DNA of 64,000 nucleotides from Hyphomicrobiales bacterium. GTDB taxonomy: Bacteria > Pseudomonadota > Alphaproteobacteria > Rhizobiales > JACESI01. Under the pieces are notes generated by a model. The model made no database searches. It saw only the letters and a program-made list of their open reading frames with translations, and was not told where the DNA came from. This document shows positions 37,750-48,927 of this stretch, piece after piece. Position numbers and translations under genes: made by a program. The stretch is taken from positions 1-64,000 of the forward strand of contig JBDWKL010000042.1 of the NCBI GenBank assembly GCA_039973685.1, read 5' to 3'. Within the stretch, counting starts at the first letter, position 1; the number at the start of each line of letters is the position of its first letter.

Positions 37750-38184
37750 ATGCCTCCGCATCATTCCATTATTGATGGAACATCTGACCGCCAAGACGGC
37801 TGGGTCTTTATTGCGCATCGTCGCGACCTTGATCGTCCGCGTCCGCTTCTTCCAATTTTAATCGATGAAAAGCCGCTTTTGCTCTTTCGTGATGACGAAG
37901 GTGAGTTGGGCTTAATTGGGCGCAATTGCCCGCATCGCGGTGCTGATCTTTGTTATGGGCGCTTAGAAGATAACGGCATTCGTTGCCCGTTCCACGGCTG
38001 GCATTTTGACCGCACAGGCCAATGTGTCGAACAACCTGCAGAGCCTGAGGGGTCGCACATGTATAAGGCGATTAAAGTGCCGATGTTGCCTTTGTACGAG
38101 GTTGATGGTCAAATCTATGCCTACACGGCAGAAGGTGAACCTTCGGGTCTTCCAAAAATACAATCAGTCGAAGGTGCATCATGA
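37750..38184 (+). CDS. Stand-alone Rieske [2Fe-2S] protein, partner of the next gene
   Basis: Soluble protein of 144 residues made of one Rieske domain. Cluster ligands are Cys60, His62, Cys79 and His82 (CPHRGADL and CPFHGWHFD). It looks like the N-terminal Rieske part of a PobA-type aromatic-ring oxygenase alpha subunit (GWVFIAHRRDL before, VPMLPLYEVDGQIYAY after), cut off before the catalytic domain. Its stop overlaps the start of the next gene (ATGA), whose product has a catalytic domain but no cluster ligands. The two therefore probably form one enzyme with the electron-transfer domain in trans. Confidence 0.85.
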   Translation: MPPHHSIIDGTSDRQDGWVFIAHRRDLDRPRPLLPILIDEKPLLLFRDDEGELGLIGRNCPHRGADLCYGRLEDNGIRCPFHGWHFDRTGQCVEQPAEPEGSHMYKAIKVPMLPLYEVDGQIYAYTAEGEPSGLPKIQSVEGAS

Positions 38185-39401
38185 TACCGCAAAGCTTGAA
38201 TGATCAGTTGACGCGCATTGGCCCGCAAACATCTGCTGGCAAGGTGCTTCGGCAATATTGGCAGCCTGCAGCCTTGGTTGATGAGCTTGATGGCGATAAG
38301 CTGTTGCCTGTCAATTTGATGGGCGAACGATTGGCGTTATGTCGCGGCTCCAATGGTGAGCTACACTTAGTCACACGCCAGTCCAACCCTGATGAGCGTC
38401 CAACCTTTCACCCTGAACAGGTGATTGTTGATGAGAGCGGCCCGACTTATCCGATTGTCGAAAAGCGCGGCATCTTCTTTGCGTTTATGGGTGAGGGCGC
38501 GCCGCCCGCGTTTCCGAATTTTGATTGCTTTAGAGCGCCTGATACGCATGTATTTGCATTCAAAGGCTTGTGGGAATGCAATTGGATGCAAGCGCTAGAG
38601 ATTGGTATTGATCCGGCCCACGCAAGCTTTTTGCATCGTTTCTTAGAAGATGAAGACCCAGACGATAGCTACGGCAAACAGTTCCGCGATAAGGCGGCAC
38701 ACACCAATATGCCGATGACGCAGATATTGCGTGAGTATCCACGCCCAGAATTGAAAGTGGATGAAACCGACTATGGGCTGAAGATTACCGCCCTTCGCCA
38801 TATGGAAAACGAACTGACCCATGTGCGGGTGACTAACGCGATTTTCCCCGAAGCGATTTGCATTCCGATGTCGCGTGAGATGACCATCACACAGTGGCAT
38901 GTGCCTGTGGATGATGAGAATTGCTATTGGTATACGATGTTCACAAGCTTCGACACGCCGGTGAATAAAGAGCTGATGCGTGAACAGCGCTTGGCGGAAC
39001 ACACTTTGCCAGAATATGCGCCGATCAAGAACAAGTCGAACGATTATCACTATGACCCTGACGAACAGCGCAATGTCACCTATACGGGCATGGGGCTAGA
39101 TATCAACGTGCACGATCAGTGGGCGGTTGAAATGATGGGTTCTATTCAAGACCGTACGCGTGAGCATTTGGGGCGTTCGGATGTGGCGATTATTCGTCAT
39201 CGCCGTATGTTGAGACAAGCAATAGCAGCCGTGGAAGCTGGCGAATTAGATGCATTGCCGATGCAACAAGTAGACGCCTCAATGGTGGTCGGACCACTTT
39301 CCAATGATGCGGTTGCGTCCACAGACAATTGGCAAAATGCCAGTTGGGAACAAGATATGGAACGACGTGCTGCTTGTTCGTGGGATGCGTCGGTCAGTTA
39401 A
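38181..39401 (+). CDS. Rieske-type oxygenase catalytic subunit lacking its own Rieske cluster
   Basis: 406 residues, related to PobA/phenoxybenzoate dioxygenase-type alpha subunits: NDQLTRIGPQTSAGKVLRQYW at the start and ECNWMQALEIGIDPAHASFLH in the centre. The non-haem iron ligands His147 and His152 and the bridging Asp144 are kept. Where other members have CPHR...CxxHGWKFD, this protein has GELHLVTRQSNPDERPTFHP, with no cluster Cys-His pairs. The missing cluster is supplied by the overlapping upstream gene (inference). Substrate unknown; the linked ligase gene suggests an amine or acid. Confidence 0.85.
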   Translation: MIPQSLNDQLTRIGPQTSAGKVLRQYWQPAALVDELDGDKLLPVNLMGERLALCRGSNGELHLVTRQSNPDERPTFHPEQVIVDESGPTYPIVEKRGIFFAFMGEGAPPAFPNFDCFRAPDTHVFAFKGLWECNWMQALEIGIDPAHASFLHRFLEDEDPDDSYGKQFRDKAAHTNMPMTQILREYPRPELKVDETDYGLKITALRHMENELTHVRVTNAIFPEAICIPMSREMTITQWHVPVDDENCYWYTMFTSFDTPVNKELMREQRLAEHTLPEYAPIKNKSNDYHYDPDEQRNVTYTGMGLDINVHDQWAVEMMGSIQDRTREHLGRSDVAIIRHRRMLRQAIAAVEAGELDALPMQQVDASMVVGPLSNDAVASTDNWQNASWEQDMERRAACSWDASVS

Positions 39402-39402
39402 A

Positions 39403-40866
39403 ATGAGCCAAGACCTAATTGCTAAAATCAAAGCAGGGTTGCTTGCTAAGAAATCAGTTTTGACTGAGAGCGATATTGAAAGCGCGGCTGCCTGTATCTC
39501 GCAAGTAGAAGCTGACAAGGTTGAAACGGTGCGCTTGGTCTTTCCAGATCAGCACGGCATTTTGCGCGGTAAGAACATTGTAGCAAGTGCGCTTGCTTCT
39601 GCCTTTGCTTCTGGCGTTGGTATGCCGTCTACCTTGTTGCTTAAAGATACATCGCAAAAGACCGTATTTCCCGTATGGGATGATGATGTTTCCATCGGCA
39701 GCCTTGCGCTTAATGGGGCGAGCGATGTGTTGATGGTGCCGCGTGCTGAGACAATGGTGACATTGCCGTGGTCGCCGCATTCTCGTTTGATCATGTGTGA
39801 TCTGGTTGACCGCGAAGGCCAGCCGATCAGTGTTTCATCCCGCCAAGTGCTGTCGAACGCCGTCACAAAGCTCAGTGATGCTGGTTATAGCGCTCTGATG
39901 GGCCTAGAGGTGGAATTCCAGCTCTATGAGCGTGTTGATGACGGCATGGATCACTCTGATGCCACAATGCCGCCTAAAGCCGTTAAAACGCGCAACTTGA
40001 CCCAAGGCGGTCAGTTTCTGGCCGAACATCGCTACCGCGAAGTAGAAGCGATCCTTGATGAGCTTCGTCGTGCTGGTGAGCAGATGGGGCTTGCGGTTCG
40101 TACGATGGAAATTGAAATGGGGGCGAGCCAGTTTGAATTTACCTTCGAACCATCCGACCCAATGACGCAGGCAGATCGGTTTGTATCATTCCGCACCATG
40201 GTGAAAGAGATCAGTAGCCAGAAGGGGCTACATGCTAGTTTCATGGCAAAGCCAAAATTGCCAAATGCGGCGGCAAACGGTTGGCACATGCATCAATCAC
40301 TCTCTTCAATTGAGACAGGTGAGAATTGCTTTACACCGAGCAAAGGGAACGAGCTGACGAAAGAGGCGTCGGGATGGATTGCGGGTTTGCTGGAACATGC
40401 AATGGCATCTTGTCTTTTAACAACACCGACGGTGAACGGATATAAACGGTTCGCGCCGTTCCAACTTGCTCCAAACCGTATTCAGTGGGGCTATGATAAT
40501 CGTGGGGCTATGGTTCGTGCGCTGCTTTTTGAAGGTGATGGCGCAAGCCGAATAGAAAACCGCGTGGCAGATTCTACTGCGAACCCTTACTTTGCTTTTG
40601 CTGGTCAAATATTATCGGGTTTGGATGGAATTGAGCGCGGTGCGACACCACCAGAAGCCACCAACTCGCCTTATGATAGTGACGCGCAATTGTTGCCTGA
40701 AACCTTGGCTGAAGCGATTGAGGCGTTTGAGGGCAGCGCTCTCTATCGTGCATCGCTTGGTGATGCCTTTGTCGATTATCTAAGCCATATCAAACGGGCT
40801 GAATGGAAGCGCTATTTGATGACTGTTTCTGAGTGGGAACAGGATGAGTATTTCAATCTATATTAG
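39403..40866 (+). CDS. Glutamine synthetase-like ligase (GlnA-type III/gamma-glutamyl ligase family)
   Basis: ATP-dependent amide ligase fold, 487 residues. Visible motifs include GLEVEFQLYE (metal-binding Glu), MEIEMGASQFEFTFEP, ANGWHMHQSL (Asn-Gly-x-x-x-His loop), FAPFQLAPNRIQWGYDNR and RIENRVADSTANPYFAFA. It belongs to the GS-like group used in catabolism, for example gamma-glutamylation of amines such as aniline or polyamines, rather than nitrogen assimilation: no adenylylation-site Tyr motif is seen. ATG 39403 follows the oxygenase stop directly, indicating coupling. The product of ligation may be the substrate of the split oxygenase (inference). Confidence 0.87.
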   Translation: MSQDLIAKIKAGLLAKKSVLTESDIESAAACISQVEADKVETVRLVFPDQHGILRGKNIVASALASAFASGVGMPSTLLLKDTSQKTVFPVWDDDVSIGSLALNGASDVLMVPRAETMVTLPWSPHSRLIMCDLVDREGQPISVSSRQVLSNAVTKLSDAGYSALMGLEVEFQLYERVDDGMDHSDATMPPKAVKTRNLTQGGQFLAEHRYREVEAILDELRRAGEQMGLAVRTMEIEMGASQFEFTFEPSDPMTQADRFVSFRTMVKEISSQKGLHASFMAKPKLPNAAANGWHMHQSLSSIETGENCFTPSKGNELTKEASGWIAGLLEHAMASCLLTTPTVNGYKRFAPFQLAPNRIQWGYDNRGAMVRALLFEGDGASRIENRVADSTANPYFAFAGQILSGLDGIERGATPPEATNSPYDSDAQLLPETLAEAIEAFEGSALYRASLGDAFVDYLSHIKRAEWKRYLMTVSEWEQDEYFNLY

Positions 40867-40868
40867 GT

Positions 40869-41588
40869 ATGAAAACCAAACCCACCATCATCCCGCTCGC
40901 AGGCCATGTCTTTGAAGACACGATAGACGGGTATTTCCCGCTTCAAGAATCCTTAAAACAAATGATGAAGCGGCAAGGGTTTAGCGCGGCGGTTGTTTCT
41001 TTGAATTTTGCCCCTGCAATGGATATTCCAAATCTTGCGCATGAAGACCCCGTTCCGCTCTACGTGACAGACGGTTTCGGTTGCATGATCAACCATATGA
41101 CCCTTGTTGTGCGCCATATCGGTGACAAGGTGGAGGTTGAAGGGCTGGGTGATTGGAAATGGTTTGACGGCCCCTTGATTGATACACCTCATTTTTCTCC
41201 GCTGCATCGGTTAGCGGAGCCTGCCTTCATCAAAGGTGTTGGGTTTAGGCGAGGAGAGGTGGACACCAAGCTTTTAGGGCACGTTGAAGAAGGAAGTCAT
41301 TCACCCCAATTTGCACTTTTGGGGTTTAACAAGAATGATAACATTACATGTGATGAGGTTTTAAAGCCGCTTGGGTGGTCTACGGCGAGGATAATGCTTA
41401 AGAGCTCTGACGGTAAAACGATTGATCGCGATGAGACGCTGGTTGAAGCTTCAATGTTACAGCGGATAGACGGGGCGTTTACCTGTATAGACCCGTCTAG
41501 CGATTTCATCATTTGTCGTGATGACAAGGGACTTGATAGAGGCTCTTCGTTTTTAATCGAAAAACATTGGCGCCTCTTCGCCCCCTGA
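40869..41588 (+). CDS. Unrecognised protein in the split-Rieske operon
   Basis: Protein of 239 residues, starting two bases after the ligase stop, so clearly co-transcribed. No signal peptide, membrane helix or known motif is seen. Features are an N-terminal GHVFEDTIDGYFPLQESL, VPLYVTDGFGCMINHMTLVV, and a C-terminal FTCIDPSSDFIICRDD. Given its place, it may be a subunit or an enzyme acting on the product of the split oxygenase, but this is guesswork. Confidence 0.6.
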   Translation: MKTKPTIIPLAGHVFEDTIDGYFPLQESLKQMMKRQGFSAAVVSLNFAPAMDIPNLAHEDPVPLYVTDGFGCMINHMTLVVRHIGDKVEVEGLGDWKWFDGPLIDTPHFSPLHRLAEPAFIKGVGFRRGEVDTKLLGHVEEGSHSPQFALLGFNKNDNITCDEVLKPLGWSTARIMLKSSDGKTIDRDETLVEASMLQRIDGAFTCIDPSSDFIICRDDKGLDRGSSFLIEKHWRLFAP

Positions 41589-45372: not shown

Positions 45373-45514
45373 ACATCCTATTTTTGTTTGTTTGGCTAAA
45401 ATAGGGGATAAAGCCAACAAACGAAAATCTGCTTGATCGCTGTTGAAAATATGGCAATGTATCCCGTGGATTTCTACCTTTACCCGTGTTGGTGAATTGT
45501 TCCGGGAGCTTTTG

Positions 45515-46639
45515 ATGACAGACGCCGTTTTAGAACTTGCAGACAATGTGTCTGTTCCTTTTGAAGAAGCGCATGCAATGCCAACATCTGTCTATACGTC
45601 GGATGAATTTTTGCAGCGTGAGCTTTCTGACGTGTTTTCAAAGGATTGGTTCTGTGTCGGTCGCGCTTCTTCTTTAGAAAACGCAGGCGACTACTTGACG
45701 CTTGAGCTCGCTAATCAACCGATTATTGTTTTGAGAGATAAAGACGGCACGTTGAAGGCGATGTCGAATGTTTGCTTGCATCGTATGTCCACCTTGCTTG
45801 AAGGGCAGGGCAATGCCCGCGCTATTGTGTGCCCTTACCATGCTTGGACCTATAACCTTGATGGCACATTGCGCGGCGCACCAGCGATGACGCAGAACAA
45901 CGGTTTTTGCAAAGATCACTATAAGTTACCGCAAGTTCGCTGTGAGGAATGGCTCGGCTGGGCATTTGTCACGTTGAACCCAGACGCGAAACCAGTCGCT
46001 GACGAGCTTGTGAAGGTCGAGGAACTGGTTGGCGACTATGACATGACGAACTATCGCCAGACCTTTTTTGAAACCCATGTTTGGGACACAAACTGGAAGG
46101 TGCTCGCTGAGAATTTCATGGAGAGCTACCATTTGCCCGTTTGTCATTCGGGTACCATTGGTGGGCTTTCTAAGCTGGAAGAAATGATTTGTCCGGCAGG
46201 TGAAAAGGCGTTCAACTATCACACAATTCTCAAAGACGATTCACTAAAGATCGCAATGGCGCACCCAAATAATACGCGCTTGAGCGGGGATCGCCGTCGC
46301 ATGACATACCTGTTGGCGATTTACCCAAGCTTGTTGATTACCCTGACGCCGGGATATTTTTGGTACTTAACTTTGCAGCCAGAAGGTGTGGGGCAGGTTA
46401 AGATCGGTTTTGGTGGCGGCATGTCGGAGGACTACGCCAACGATCCATCCGCACGGGAAAACTTCAAGCAGTTGAAAACGCTGCTTGATGAGGTGAATGT
46501 AGAAGATAAGGGTTGTACTGAGAAGGTCTATAAAGGACTTAGTTCAAGGGCTGCAAAACCTGGTCATCTGTCTCACCTTGAGCGGCCAAATTATGATTTT
46601 GCCCATTATCTCAATTCAAGAATGCAACAAGCTGGCTAA
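45515..46639 (+). CDS. Rieske non-haem iron oxygenase alpha subunit
   Basis: 374 residues with a complete Rieske-type oxygenase layout. The cluster ligands are in CLHRMSTLLEG (about residue 87) and CPYHAWTYNLDG (about 105). The iron-site motif is NFMESYHLPVCH (about 200-210). It resembles the family of glycine betaine, stachydrine or carnitine monooxygenase and other quaternary amine or aromatic oxygenases. ATG 45515 has GGGAG six bases upstream and is preferred over an upstream in-frame start. First gene of a four-gene plus-strand cluster; no reductase gene lies nearby. Confidence 0.9.
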   Translation: MTDAVLELADNVSVPFEEAHAMPTSVYTSDEFLQRELSDVFSKDWFCVGRASSLENAGDYLTLELANQPIIVLRDKDGTLKAMSNVCLHRMSTLLEGQGNARAIVCPYHAWTYNLDGTLRGAPAMTQNNGFCKDHYKLPQVRCEEWLGWAFVTLNPDAKPVADELVKVEELVGDYDMTNYRQTFFETHVWDTNWKVLAENFMESYHLPVCHSGTIGGLSKLEEMICPAGEKAFNYHTILKDDSLKIAMAHPNNTRLSGDRRRMTYLLAIYPSLLITLTPGYFWYLTLQPEGVGQVKIGFGGGMSEDYANDPSARENFKQLKTLLDEVNVEDKGCTEKVYKGLSSRAAKPGHLSHLERPNYDFAHYLNSRMQQAG

Positions 46640-46698: not shown

Positions 46699-47115
46699 AT
46701 GGCGCATACCCGAATTCGAAAATTCAACACCAAGGAAACCTATCCAGAGCAAGATTTGGATAATGACCTTTGTCAGGCTGTCGTGACCCAAGGCGGCAAG
46801 ACCGTATGGCTGCGAGGCCAATGCCCGCAAAATTTGGATGATGCTAAGAACATTGAGAGCCATGACCCTGTGGAGCAGACCCACAAAGTCATGCAGAACA
46901 TCAAGCAGCTTATTGAAGAAGCGGGCGGTGAGATGGAGCATTTGGTCAAAGTGGTGGTCTACATCACCGATGTTCGCCATCGCGAAGCTGTTTACCGCAC
47001 CATGGGTGAATATATCAAAGGCGTGCATCCCGTATCCACTGGCCTTGTGGTGCAAGCTTTAGCGCGGCCTGAGTGGTTGGTTGAAATTGATGGCACGGCG
47101 GTGATCCCAGAATGA
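46699..47115 (+). CDS. Rid (YjgF/YER057c/UK114) family protein without catalytic Arg
   Basis: 138 residues, single Rid fold: YITDVRHREAVYRTMGEYIKG and WLVEIDGTAVI. In true RidA imine deaminases an Arg stands in PARSxV; here the segment reads HPVSTGLVVQALARPEW, so that Arg is absent. The protein is therefore probably of another Rid subgroup with a different activity, perhaps hydrolysis or tautomerisation of a pathway intermediate. ATG 46699 is chosen over an upstream start for its position after GAGA. Its stop overlaps the next start (ATGA). Confidence 0.85.
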   Translation: MAHTRIRKFNTKETYPEQDLDNDLCQAVVTQGGKTVWLRGQCPQNLDDAKNIESHDPVEQTHKVMQNIKQLIEEAGGEMEHLVKVVVYITDVRHREAVYRTMGEYIKGVHPVSTGLVVQALARPEWLVEIDGTAVIPE

Positions 47116-47786
47116 CGTTTTCTCTTGTCGCTCGCTGTGCTGAAACTGGCATGTTTGGCGTTGCTGTTGCCTCATCCTCTCCGGCAGTTGCAGCGCGCTG
47201 TTCTTATACCCGCGCAGGCGTTGGTGCTGTTGCTAGCCAAAATGTCACGGACCCGTCGCTTGGGCCTTTGACGCTTGATTTAATGGCGAAGGGCATGTCA
47301 TCGAGCGAGGCGATTGCAGAGATCAAAGCCACCCAAAAGCACCTTGAGTTTCGGCAGGTTCTGGCCATTGATGTTGAGGGCAATACAGCGATCCATTCCG
47401 GCAGTAATTCGCTCGGTATTTGGACGCAGGCAGAGGGCAGGGATGTTGTGGCTGCTGGCAACCTATTAGCCAACGCCGAAGTGCCTGCTGCAATCGTTTC
47501 AGGCTTTGAAAATGCAACGGGTCATATAGGTGATCGGCTCCTTGCTGCCATGCAAGCCGGACTAGATGCTGGTGGTGAAGCAGGGCCTATTCACTCAGCA
47601 GGAATGCAGATTTGCGACAAAGTTTCTTGGCCTGTGTCGGATTTAAGATGTGATTGGACGCAAGATTGTCCGATAGTCTCAATTAGAAATGCTTGGGACG
47701 TATATAAGCCTCAGCTAGAAGCCTATGTTCAACGTGCGCTTAACCCACAAGGAGCGCCATCATATGGGGTTCCGGGAGATGAGTGA
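47112..47786 (+). CDS. DUF1028 family protein (Ntn-hydrolase-like)
   Basis: 224 residues matching DUF1028: TFSLVARCAETGMFGVAVASSSPAVAARC at the N-terminus, then GAVASQNVTDPSLGP, and DLRCDWTQDCPI near the end. The family is predicted to have an Ntn-hydrolase fold. It often occurs next to Rid proteins and M20 peptidases in catabolic clusters, as it does here, but its reaction is not known. Starts within the Rid stop (ATGA overlap) and overlaps the next Rieske gene. Confidence 0.85.
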   Translation: MTFSLVARCAETGMFGVAVASSSPAVAARCSYTRAGVGAVASQNVTDPSLGPLTLDLMAKGMSSSEAIAEIKATQKHLEFRQVLAIDVEGNTAIHSGSNSLGIWTQAEGRDVVAAGNLLANAEVPAAIVSGFENATGHIGDRLLAAMQAGLDAGGEAGPIHSAGMQICDKVSWPVSDLRCDWTQDCPIVSIRNAWDVYKPQLEAYVQRALNPQGAPSYGVPGDE

Positions 47787-48927
47787 GCAATTAACTGCTT
47801 TCAGCGCCTTGACCGCATCTGTTTCGTCCATGCGACAGGAACTAGATGGAATAGCAAAATCAGCCGAGAATAGCCCTTGGGGGCTACCGGGTAAGTTTTA
47901 TGTAAGCCCGCATTTTTTCGACTACGAACGTGCCACACTTTTACGCCGTGGGTGGCATTGTATCGGGCGGGCTGATGAGATCCCTAATCAAGGGGATTAT
48001 CTGACACTGCAACTGCTCGATGAACCTTTGATCGTTGTGCGTGATAAGACTAATATCAAAGCGCTTTCAAATGTGTGTCGCCATCGCGGAATGCCGCTTG
48101 CAACGGGCAACGGTAACACCAAGCGGTTTGTGTGTTCTTATCATGCGTGGATGTATGGCACCGATGGTGGGCTTGTACGCGCGGGGCGCATGAAGAACGC
48201 GGCGTTTGATCCCAAGACATGCAAGCTTGGTACGTTTCATTGTGTTGAGCGGTTTGGGTTTATCTATGTGTCGCTCGACGACCATCCGGCCGATATTGAT
48301 GCGGAACTCACGGGCCTAGATGAGTTGATCGGCGCCTATGACCCGACAAATTTCCATGTGGTGCATTCTGCCACAGAGGTTTGGAATGCGAATTGGAAAT
48401 GCTTGATTGAGAACTTCATGGAGGGATATCATCTCTCCGTTGTTCACCCACAAACACTGCATGGCTACACGCCGACAGGACTGTGCGAGAAAGCGGCCTC
48501 TGGTAACGGCTTTACCAGTTATTTCGCGCGCTATCCCAATGAAATCCCACCTCGTGGGCATGGGGCTGTTGGGCTGAATGAGGAAGCGCGGCATCGATCA
48601 ACGCTTTATTCTGTTTTCCCGTGCCAAGTCGTAAGCATTGCGGCATCACTGCTTGTCTCTTTGTCCATTCGCCCTCTTTCTGCTGATTCCATCGAAGTGA
48701 AATGGACGATGTCAGCTTATGGCGATGATTTGGATGAAGAAACGATCAAGCAGCGCATTGATTTGTGGGAAGAGGTGAACCGCGAAGACCGCGAGAAACT
48801 CGAAGCAATGCAACGCTCGCTGCGCTCTGTTCATGCCGTTGGTGGGCCATTGGCCGAGGAAAACTATGAGGGCACAATCCACGATTTCGTCGTGTGGTTG
48901 GCGCGCCAAGATAAGTTGACGCAGTAG
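47764..48927 (+). CDS. Second Rieske non-haem iron oxygenase alpha subunit
   Basis: About 387 residues with complete motifs: the Rieske ligands in CRHRGMPLATG (about residue 104) and CSYHAWMYGTDGG (about 123), and the iron site in NFMEGYHLSVVHP (about 219-228). It is of the same family as the oxygenase at 45515 but only moderately similar, so the two probably act on different intermediates. ATG 47764 is supported by AAGGAG at 47749-47754. It overlaps the DUF1028 gene by 23 bases. Converges with the M20 gene. Confidence 0.9.
   Translation: MGFREMSEQLTAFSALTASVSSMRQELDGIAKSAENSPWGLPGKFYVSPHFFDYERATLLRRGWHCIGRADEIPNQGDYLTLQLLDEPLIVVRDKTNIKALSNVCRHRGMPLATGNGNTKRFVCSYHAWMYGTDGGLVRAGRMKNAAFDPKTCKLGTFHCVERFGFIYVSLDDHPADIDAELTGLDELIGAYDPTNFHVVHSATEVWNANWKCLIENFMEGYHLSVVHPQTLHGYTPTGLCEKAASGNGFTSYFARYPNEIPPRGHGAVGLNEEARHRSTLYSVFPCQVVSIAASLLVSLSIRPLSADSIEVKWTMSAYGDDLDEETIKQRIDLWEEVNREDREKLEAMQRSLRSVHAVGGPLAEENYEGTIHDFVVWLARQDKLTQ

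Follow-up and report, generated by a model that had tools for sequence, protein, structure and literature searches.

A Rieske oxygenase divided between a stand-alone cluster protein and a cluster-less catalytic subunit, with a linked accessory family, in mostly marine alphaproteobacteria

The stretch of DNA analysed here (the window, 64,000 nucleotides from a Hyphomicrobiales bacterium) carries two overlapping genes that encode a 144-residue Rieske protein and a 406-residue oxygenase subunit, as read by the first-pass annotation. The stop codon of the first gene and the start codon of the second overlap as ATGA, and the two genes are probably co-transcribed and translationally coupled. They are followed by genes for a glutamine-synthetase (GS)-like enzyme and for a 239-residue protein. 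The features are as follows.

37750..38184, + strand: stand-alone Rieske [2Fe-2S] protein, 144 aa (PF00355, E 1.4e-20)
37927..37935, + strand: first cluster-ligand pair, C60-x-H62 (sequence; alignment of small Rieske proteins)
37984..37995, + strand: second cluster-ligand pair, C79-xx-H82 (sequence; alignment of small Rieske proteins)
38181..39401, + strand: catalytic oxygenase subunit without cluster ligands, 406 aa (PF19301 LigXa_C, E 2e-29)
38379..38447, + strand: replacement loop, residues 67-89, in place of the 54 residues that hold both Cys-His pairs in fused relatives
38610..38636, + strand: D144 (bridging Asp) and H147 + H152 (iron ligands), invariant in 36 split and fused sequences
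39150..39152, + strand: D324, third iron ligand, conserved in 35 of 36 sequences
39403..40866, + strand: glutamine-synthetase-like enzyme, 487 aa (PF00120)
40869..41588, + strand: 239-aa accessory protein with a PPC/DUF296-like predicted fold (no Pfam match; AF2 model; distribution)

A few kb downstream of the split pair, the window also carries two ordinary fused Rieske oxygenases (PF00355 + PF00848), which flank a DUF1028 gene (45443-46639, 47112-47786 and 47725-48927). On another contig of the same genome (G000 contig C19, 19846-24209), three clustered Rieske-domain matches fall within open frames whose lengths are 550, 360 and 667 aa; the long frames may be fusions.

The 406-aa protein belongs to the phthalate dioxygenase/LigXa branch of Rieske non-haem iron oxygenases. 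Its PF19301 score (103 bits) is far above the cut-off of 27, and its predicted structure superposes on phthalate dioxygenase 7v25 with a Z of 32.4 (351 aligned residues, rmsd 4.0). The label PobA-like should thus be replaced by phthalate/isophthalate dioxygenase-like (VIA-align Z 30-32). The 2-His-1-carboxylate site and the bridging Asp (H147, H152, D324 and D144) are kept in both split and fused forms. H147 and H152 had been correctly named as iron ligands, but Asp144, proposed as the third, is the bridging Asp, as assigned from the established D-x2-H-x4-H motif. The third ligand is instead D324 of the motif S-I-Q-D-R, which aligns with the Asp of 7fhr, 7fjl and 9ina; the only exception among the 36 sequences (L024) has undetermined residues. 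The iron-site loops of the model are of low confidence. In Rieske oxygenases, the bridging Asp takes part in electron transfer and links the iron site with the Rieske His of the neighbouring subunit (PMC12445004).

The loss of the Cys-His cluster pairs from this subunit, also noticed at first reading, is borne out by the alignment. Indeed, the segment at the cluster site is 54 aa long in all fused rows versus 23-25 aa in all split rows, a 23-residue loop replacing the 54 residues in the window protein. This loop is conserved among split forms as D71-E72-x-P74...P78. The possibility that the ligands sit at another place of the catalytic chain was also considered and rejected: a scan of the whole 406-aa chain found no CxH...CxxH, and the split lineages are unanimous in this. 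The model nevertheless retains the N-terminal base of the Rieske domain, with strands at residues 27-66 and 89-102 and a pLDDT of about 90 or more. The catalytic subunit is therefore predicted to be missing the cluster-binding part alone. As this base is retained, a complete second Rieske domain cannot just be fitted in where the original one was.

The small protein, in turn, holds PF00355 as its sole Pfam domain, and its C60/H62 and C79/H82 are invariant in the alignment. Its nearest solved sequences are the Rieske domains of the phthalate-type oxygenases 7fhr, 7fjl and 9ina. It also gives weak NCBIfam matches to Rieske ferredoxins.

A single scan of 84,980 genomes recovered 80 loci of the catalytic subunit family. 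Seventeen of them, and the window as an eighteenth, show the split form, in which a small Rieske gene lies directly upstream of a motif-less subunit, while 62 show the fused form with CxH...CxxH in cis; the remaining locus (L073) is cut by a contig end. The motif is found in 62/62 full-length fused sequences vs 0/18 split ones. Two further split cases are plasmid-borne, one in Palleronia sp. LCG004 and one in Pseudooceanicola algae, so that the search for other split pairs suggested by the first-pass annotation yielded 17 other loci and two plasmids. In every one of these cases (18 loci and 2 plasmids), the pair is adjacent and in the same order, often overlapping, and a Rieske protein with intact ligands adjoins the catalytic gene at every split locus. 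Such a repetition of pair and order is far beyond chance. The bearers are mostly marine alphaproteobacteria, and the split form is a minority there: it was found in 2 of 35 enzyme-bearing genomes sampled from the window's order and in 1 of 31 sampled across the class. In Palleronia sp. LCG004, the ORF of the small Rieske protein is intact (146 aa, L152 8545-8985 on NZ_CP136760.1), yet the plasmid record does not list it among its genes.

The same data bear on whether the separation is real. A sequencing error, a frameshift or a pseudogene could in principle remove ligands, but the 18 genomes and 2 plasmids share an equal loop of 23-25 residues. The dN/dS ratios are well below 1 (catalytic subunit 0.09-0.18, Rieske protein 0.12-0.23, 239-aa family 0.24-0.32), all three genes being under purifying selection. 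The chance of such an artefact is negligible, and no sequence correction is expected to restore the cluster ligands. The idea that a second, fused copy does the work in these organisms can also be discarded, as the split copy is the only copy of the catalytic subunit in 9/9 split genomes searched; this also holds for the window genome.

The loss of the cluster ligands could alternatively mean that the catalytic subunit is no longer a Rieske oxygenase and uses its iron without any Rieske partner, the small Rieske protein serving another reaction. This is very improbable: all 18 split sequences keep Asp144, a residue known to function in electron transfer from a Rieske centre, and the adjacency to a Rieske gene is never broken. 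It is even harder to believe that the subunit borrows its cluster from another Rieske protein of the cell. Although the window genome contains 12 Rieske-domain matches that could offer one, the adjacent small Rieske protein is conserved and 67% identical to the lost domain, which gives the pair the look of subfunctionalised duplicates.

The phylogeny points to the same origin. When the cluster columns are excluded, the tree of the catalytic subunits places all 18 split subunits in one clade (SH-aLRT 98) nested among fused enzymes, with L025, L027, L029, L032, L034 and L041 as sister rows. When the Rieske core is analysed with 7fhr, 7fjl and a paralogue as root, the small proteins, again 18, likewise form one clade (98) nested among the cis-Rieske domains of the fused enzymes. 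The two trees come from quick searches with no bootstrap values, and few columns are available in the Rieske core; in an unrooted Rieske tree with long flanks, the small and fused forms fall on either side of one branch. The small Rieske proteins are 67% identical to the cis-Rieske domains of the fused family vs 46% to outgroups. As both clades are nested among fused relatives, the two genes go back to a single fused gene, and the split clade counts as one evolutionary event. A fused phthalate-dioxygenase-like alpha subunit would have been partly duplicated; one copy would then have been reduced to its Rieske domain alone, while the other would have lost the cluster-binding part and kept the base of this domain and the whole catalytic domain.

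The split form is also marked by a third gene. The family of the 239-aa protein adjoins 18/18 split pairs vs 0/62 fused loci, and the Rieske, catalytic and 239-family genes stay close together across the split loci. At the scale of whole genomes, the family was found in 6/6 split vs 0/25 fused genomes, in 2/2 vs 0/33 in the sample of the window's order, and in 1/1 vs 0/30 in the class-wide sample; about 80 fused genomes were searched whole, one being common to the order and class-wide samples. Since the split forms are one clade, this link counts as one persisting association and not as many gains. No family of the Pfam library, GST families included, matched any of 17 members. The AF2 model (pLDDT 76) retrieves the PPC/DUF296 protein 2dt4 with Foldseek (E 7.5e-4, probability 0.99), and the predicted fold of residues about 10-137 resembles those of 2dt4, 3hwu, 2h6l and 3htn. 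The likeness is limited to VIA Z values of 6.5-8.2 (8.2 to 3hwu) over 91-110 residues; the 239-aa protein differs from this family by its low identity (7-11%) and the absence of a Pfam sequence match. The prokaryotic PPC/DUF296 proteins form trimers (PMC4209074), a symmetry that is also that of the oxygenase trimer. By analogy, the 239-aa protein may act as a clamp, itself trimeric, by which the free Rieske protein is held in place on the oxygenase trimer.

The electron donors encoded nearby also differ between the two forms. An FAD reductase and a flavodoxin are both adjacent at seven split loci (L012, L013, L016, L017, L019, L152 and L153), and a flavodoxin at an eighth (L020), where no FAD reductase was counted. 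Six fused loci (L032, L038, L061, L072, L154 and L155) have instead an adjacent Fer2-type ferredoxin and/or BphA4-type reductase. The two donor types never cross between split and fused loci, a correlation that concerns these loci with adjacent donors (seven split with both parts, plus L020, and six fused). The benzoyl-CoA (box) operon of the window genome has a flavodoxin homologue between its boxB and a boxR-like gene, and this flavodoxin may serve BoxB; for the FAD reductase of the split loci, the search in this genome gave no close homologue. An equivalent arrangement (boxB, flavodoxin, boxR-like) lies directly upstream of the split oxygenase at L020. In these box operons, found in the window genome (L151, G000 contig C18, 10-2889) and in a SAR116 genome (L020, 3468-6413), the flavodoxin may replace the usual BoxA donor. 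In the parts of the literature that our searches covered, no case of a flavodoxin as natural donor to a Rieske oxygenase was found described.

Combining these data, we propose that electrons would pass from NAD(P)H through the FAD reductase, the flavodoxin and the small Rieske protein to D144 and the mononuclear iron. The small Rieske protein would dock on the catalytic trimer in such a way as to bring its His ligand to the bridging Asp144; electrons would then pass singly to the iron held by H147, H152 and D324, O2 being activated as in the fused relatives. The small protein could instead be a diffusible shuttle comparable to Rieske ferredoxins, which it resembles by its size, its independence and its weak NCBIfam matches, the 239-aa protein then having its role elsewhere, for example in substrate handling. 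The retained domain base, which leaves no full-size empty pocket in the catalytic subunit, would also fit a shuttle. Against this, the small Rieske protein descends from the built-in domain of the oxygenase and not from Rieske ferredoxins, the overlap of the genes at many loci suggests a coupled production, and the role of a shuttle is already filled by flavodoxin in 8 split loci. A shuttle is therefore an unlikely explanation, though the most credible of the alternatives, and docking is preferred.

The GS-like enzyme would act in the same pathway as the split oxygenase. It reaches none of the NCBIfam cut-offs that define true GS or gamma-glutamylputrescine synthetase and probably catalyses a substrate glutamylation or an amide step. 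Its gene is found near most split and fused copies, although its position varies (same-strand, divergent, convergent, or absent within 7 kb). Glutamylation of amines is reportedly known from the breakdown of aniline and 1-naphthylamine, and the GS-like neighbours suggest a similar step here. Box genes, a CHMI-like gene and a 3-carboxymuconate cycloisomerase gene, also found near these oxygenase loci, suggest an aromatic compound. As a lead only, the substrate could thus be an aromatic compound and/or an amine to be glutamylated. The breakdown of homarine, considered as the pathway, was dropped, as no supporting paper was found; neither did the literature searched provide a link between Rieske proteins, GS and benzoyl-CoA. 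Genes of the glycine cleavage system (GcvP and GcvH, identified by eye) adjoin some fused copies (L028, 11933-14779; L031, 9829-10254), which hints at a one-carbon or methylated-amine link in that fused branch.

The closest relatives of the split enzyme are fused phthalate-type oxygenases with an adjacent GS-like gene (L027, L029, L032, L034 and others), whose catalytic subunit is 52-69% identical and has the same iron site. They differ by a Rieske domain in cis, by the lack of a 239-family gene and, at loci with adjacent donors, by a Fer2 ferredoxin and/or BphA4-type reductase. The phthalate dioxygenase (7v25/7fjl) and isophthalate dioxygenase (9ina/9ioy) of Comamonas testosteroni KF1 share the fold (Z 30-32) and the iron ligands, but carry both centres in one chain and belong to another substrate context. 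Phthalate dioxygenase is an alpha3alpha3 assembly (PMC12445004).

This architecture had been thought undescribed, which holds for this group as far as the literature found goes, but not for the principle. Indeed, in NdmC/NdmD/NdmE, the 7-methylxanthine N7-demethylase of caffeine degradation in Pseudomonas putida CBB5, NdmC is devoid of a Rieske cluster and depends on an additional Rieske domain carried by NdmD, NdmE being postulated to align this cluster with NdmC in an NdmCDE complex (PMC4408171). Both systems associate a cluster-free catalytic subunit with a cluster from another polypeptide, and the helper NdmE, which NdmCDE requires, has a putative counterpart in the linked 239-aa protein. 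However, the Rieske domain of NdmD is fused to an FMN/2Fe-2S reductase, whereas that of the split system stands alone and is likely fed by a flavodoxin and a separate FAD reductase. In addition, NdmE is GST-like, while the 239-aa protein has no GST match and a PPC-like predicted fold. Judged through NdmA/NdmB (Z 18-19 and 14-16% identity to the catalytic model, vs Z 30-32 and 25-28% for phthalate-type enzymes) and through its nesting among fused phthalate-type relatives, the split oxygenase apparently belongs to another branch than NdmCDE. NdmCDE is the one known case of trans Rieske supply in the literature found, and the split system is apparently independent of it.

The trans supply of the cluster proposed by the first-pass annotation is thus strengthened by 19 further instances and by the phylogeny, although the linked third gene and the change of donor had been missed. 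Taken as a whole, the scheme (an origin by duplication, a Rieske protein docked in trans, a flavodoxin donor, a 239-aa helper that would hold or align the small Rieske protein on the catalytic trimer, as postulated for NdmE, and a GS-like partner) has a probability of roughly 0.7. A more precise version is tentative and rather doubtful in all its details: a five-part oxygenase whose relay domain was split off by duplication, with flavodoxin in place of ferredoxin and a PPC-fold clamp of trimeric form, as an independent second instance of trans supply.

The transfer from the Rieske centre to the iron of the neighbouring subunit is the central step of these enzymes, and the presence of the two centres in one chain makes it difficult to study. 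With a natural two-piece enzyme and its close one-piece relatives, the relay can be titrated, altered by mutation and measured separately from the catalytic site. The split system also shows how such a separation can arise and persist, predicts a job for an unannotated 239-aa family, and its loci suggest flavodoxin as a donor to a Rieske oxygenase.
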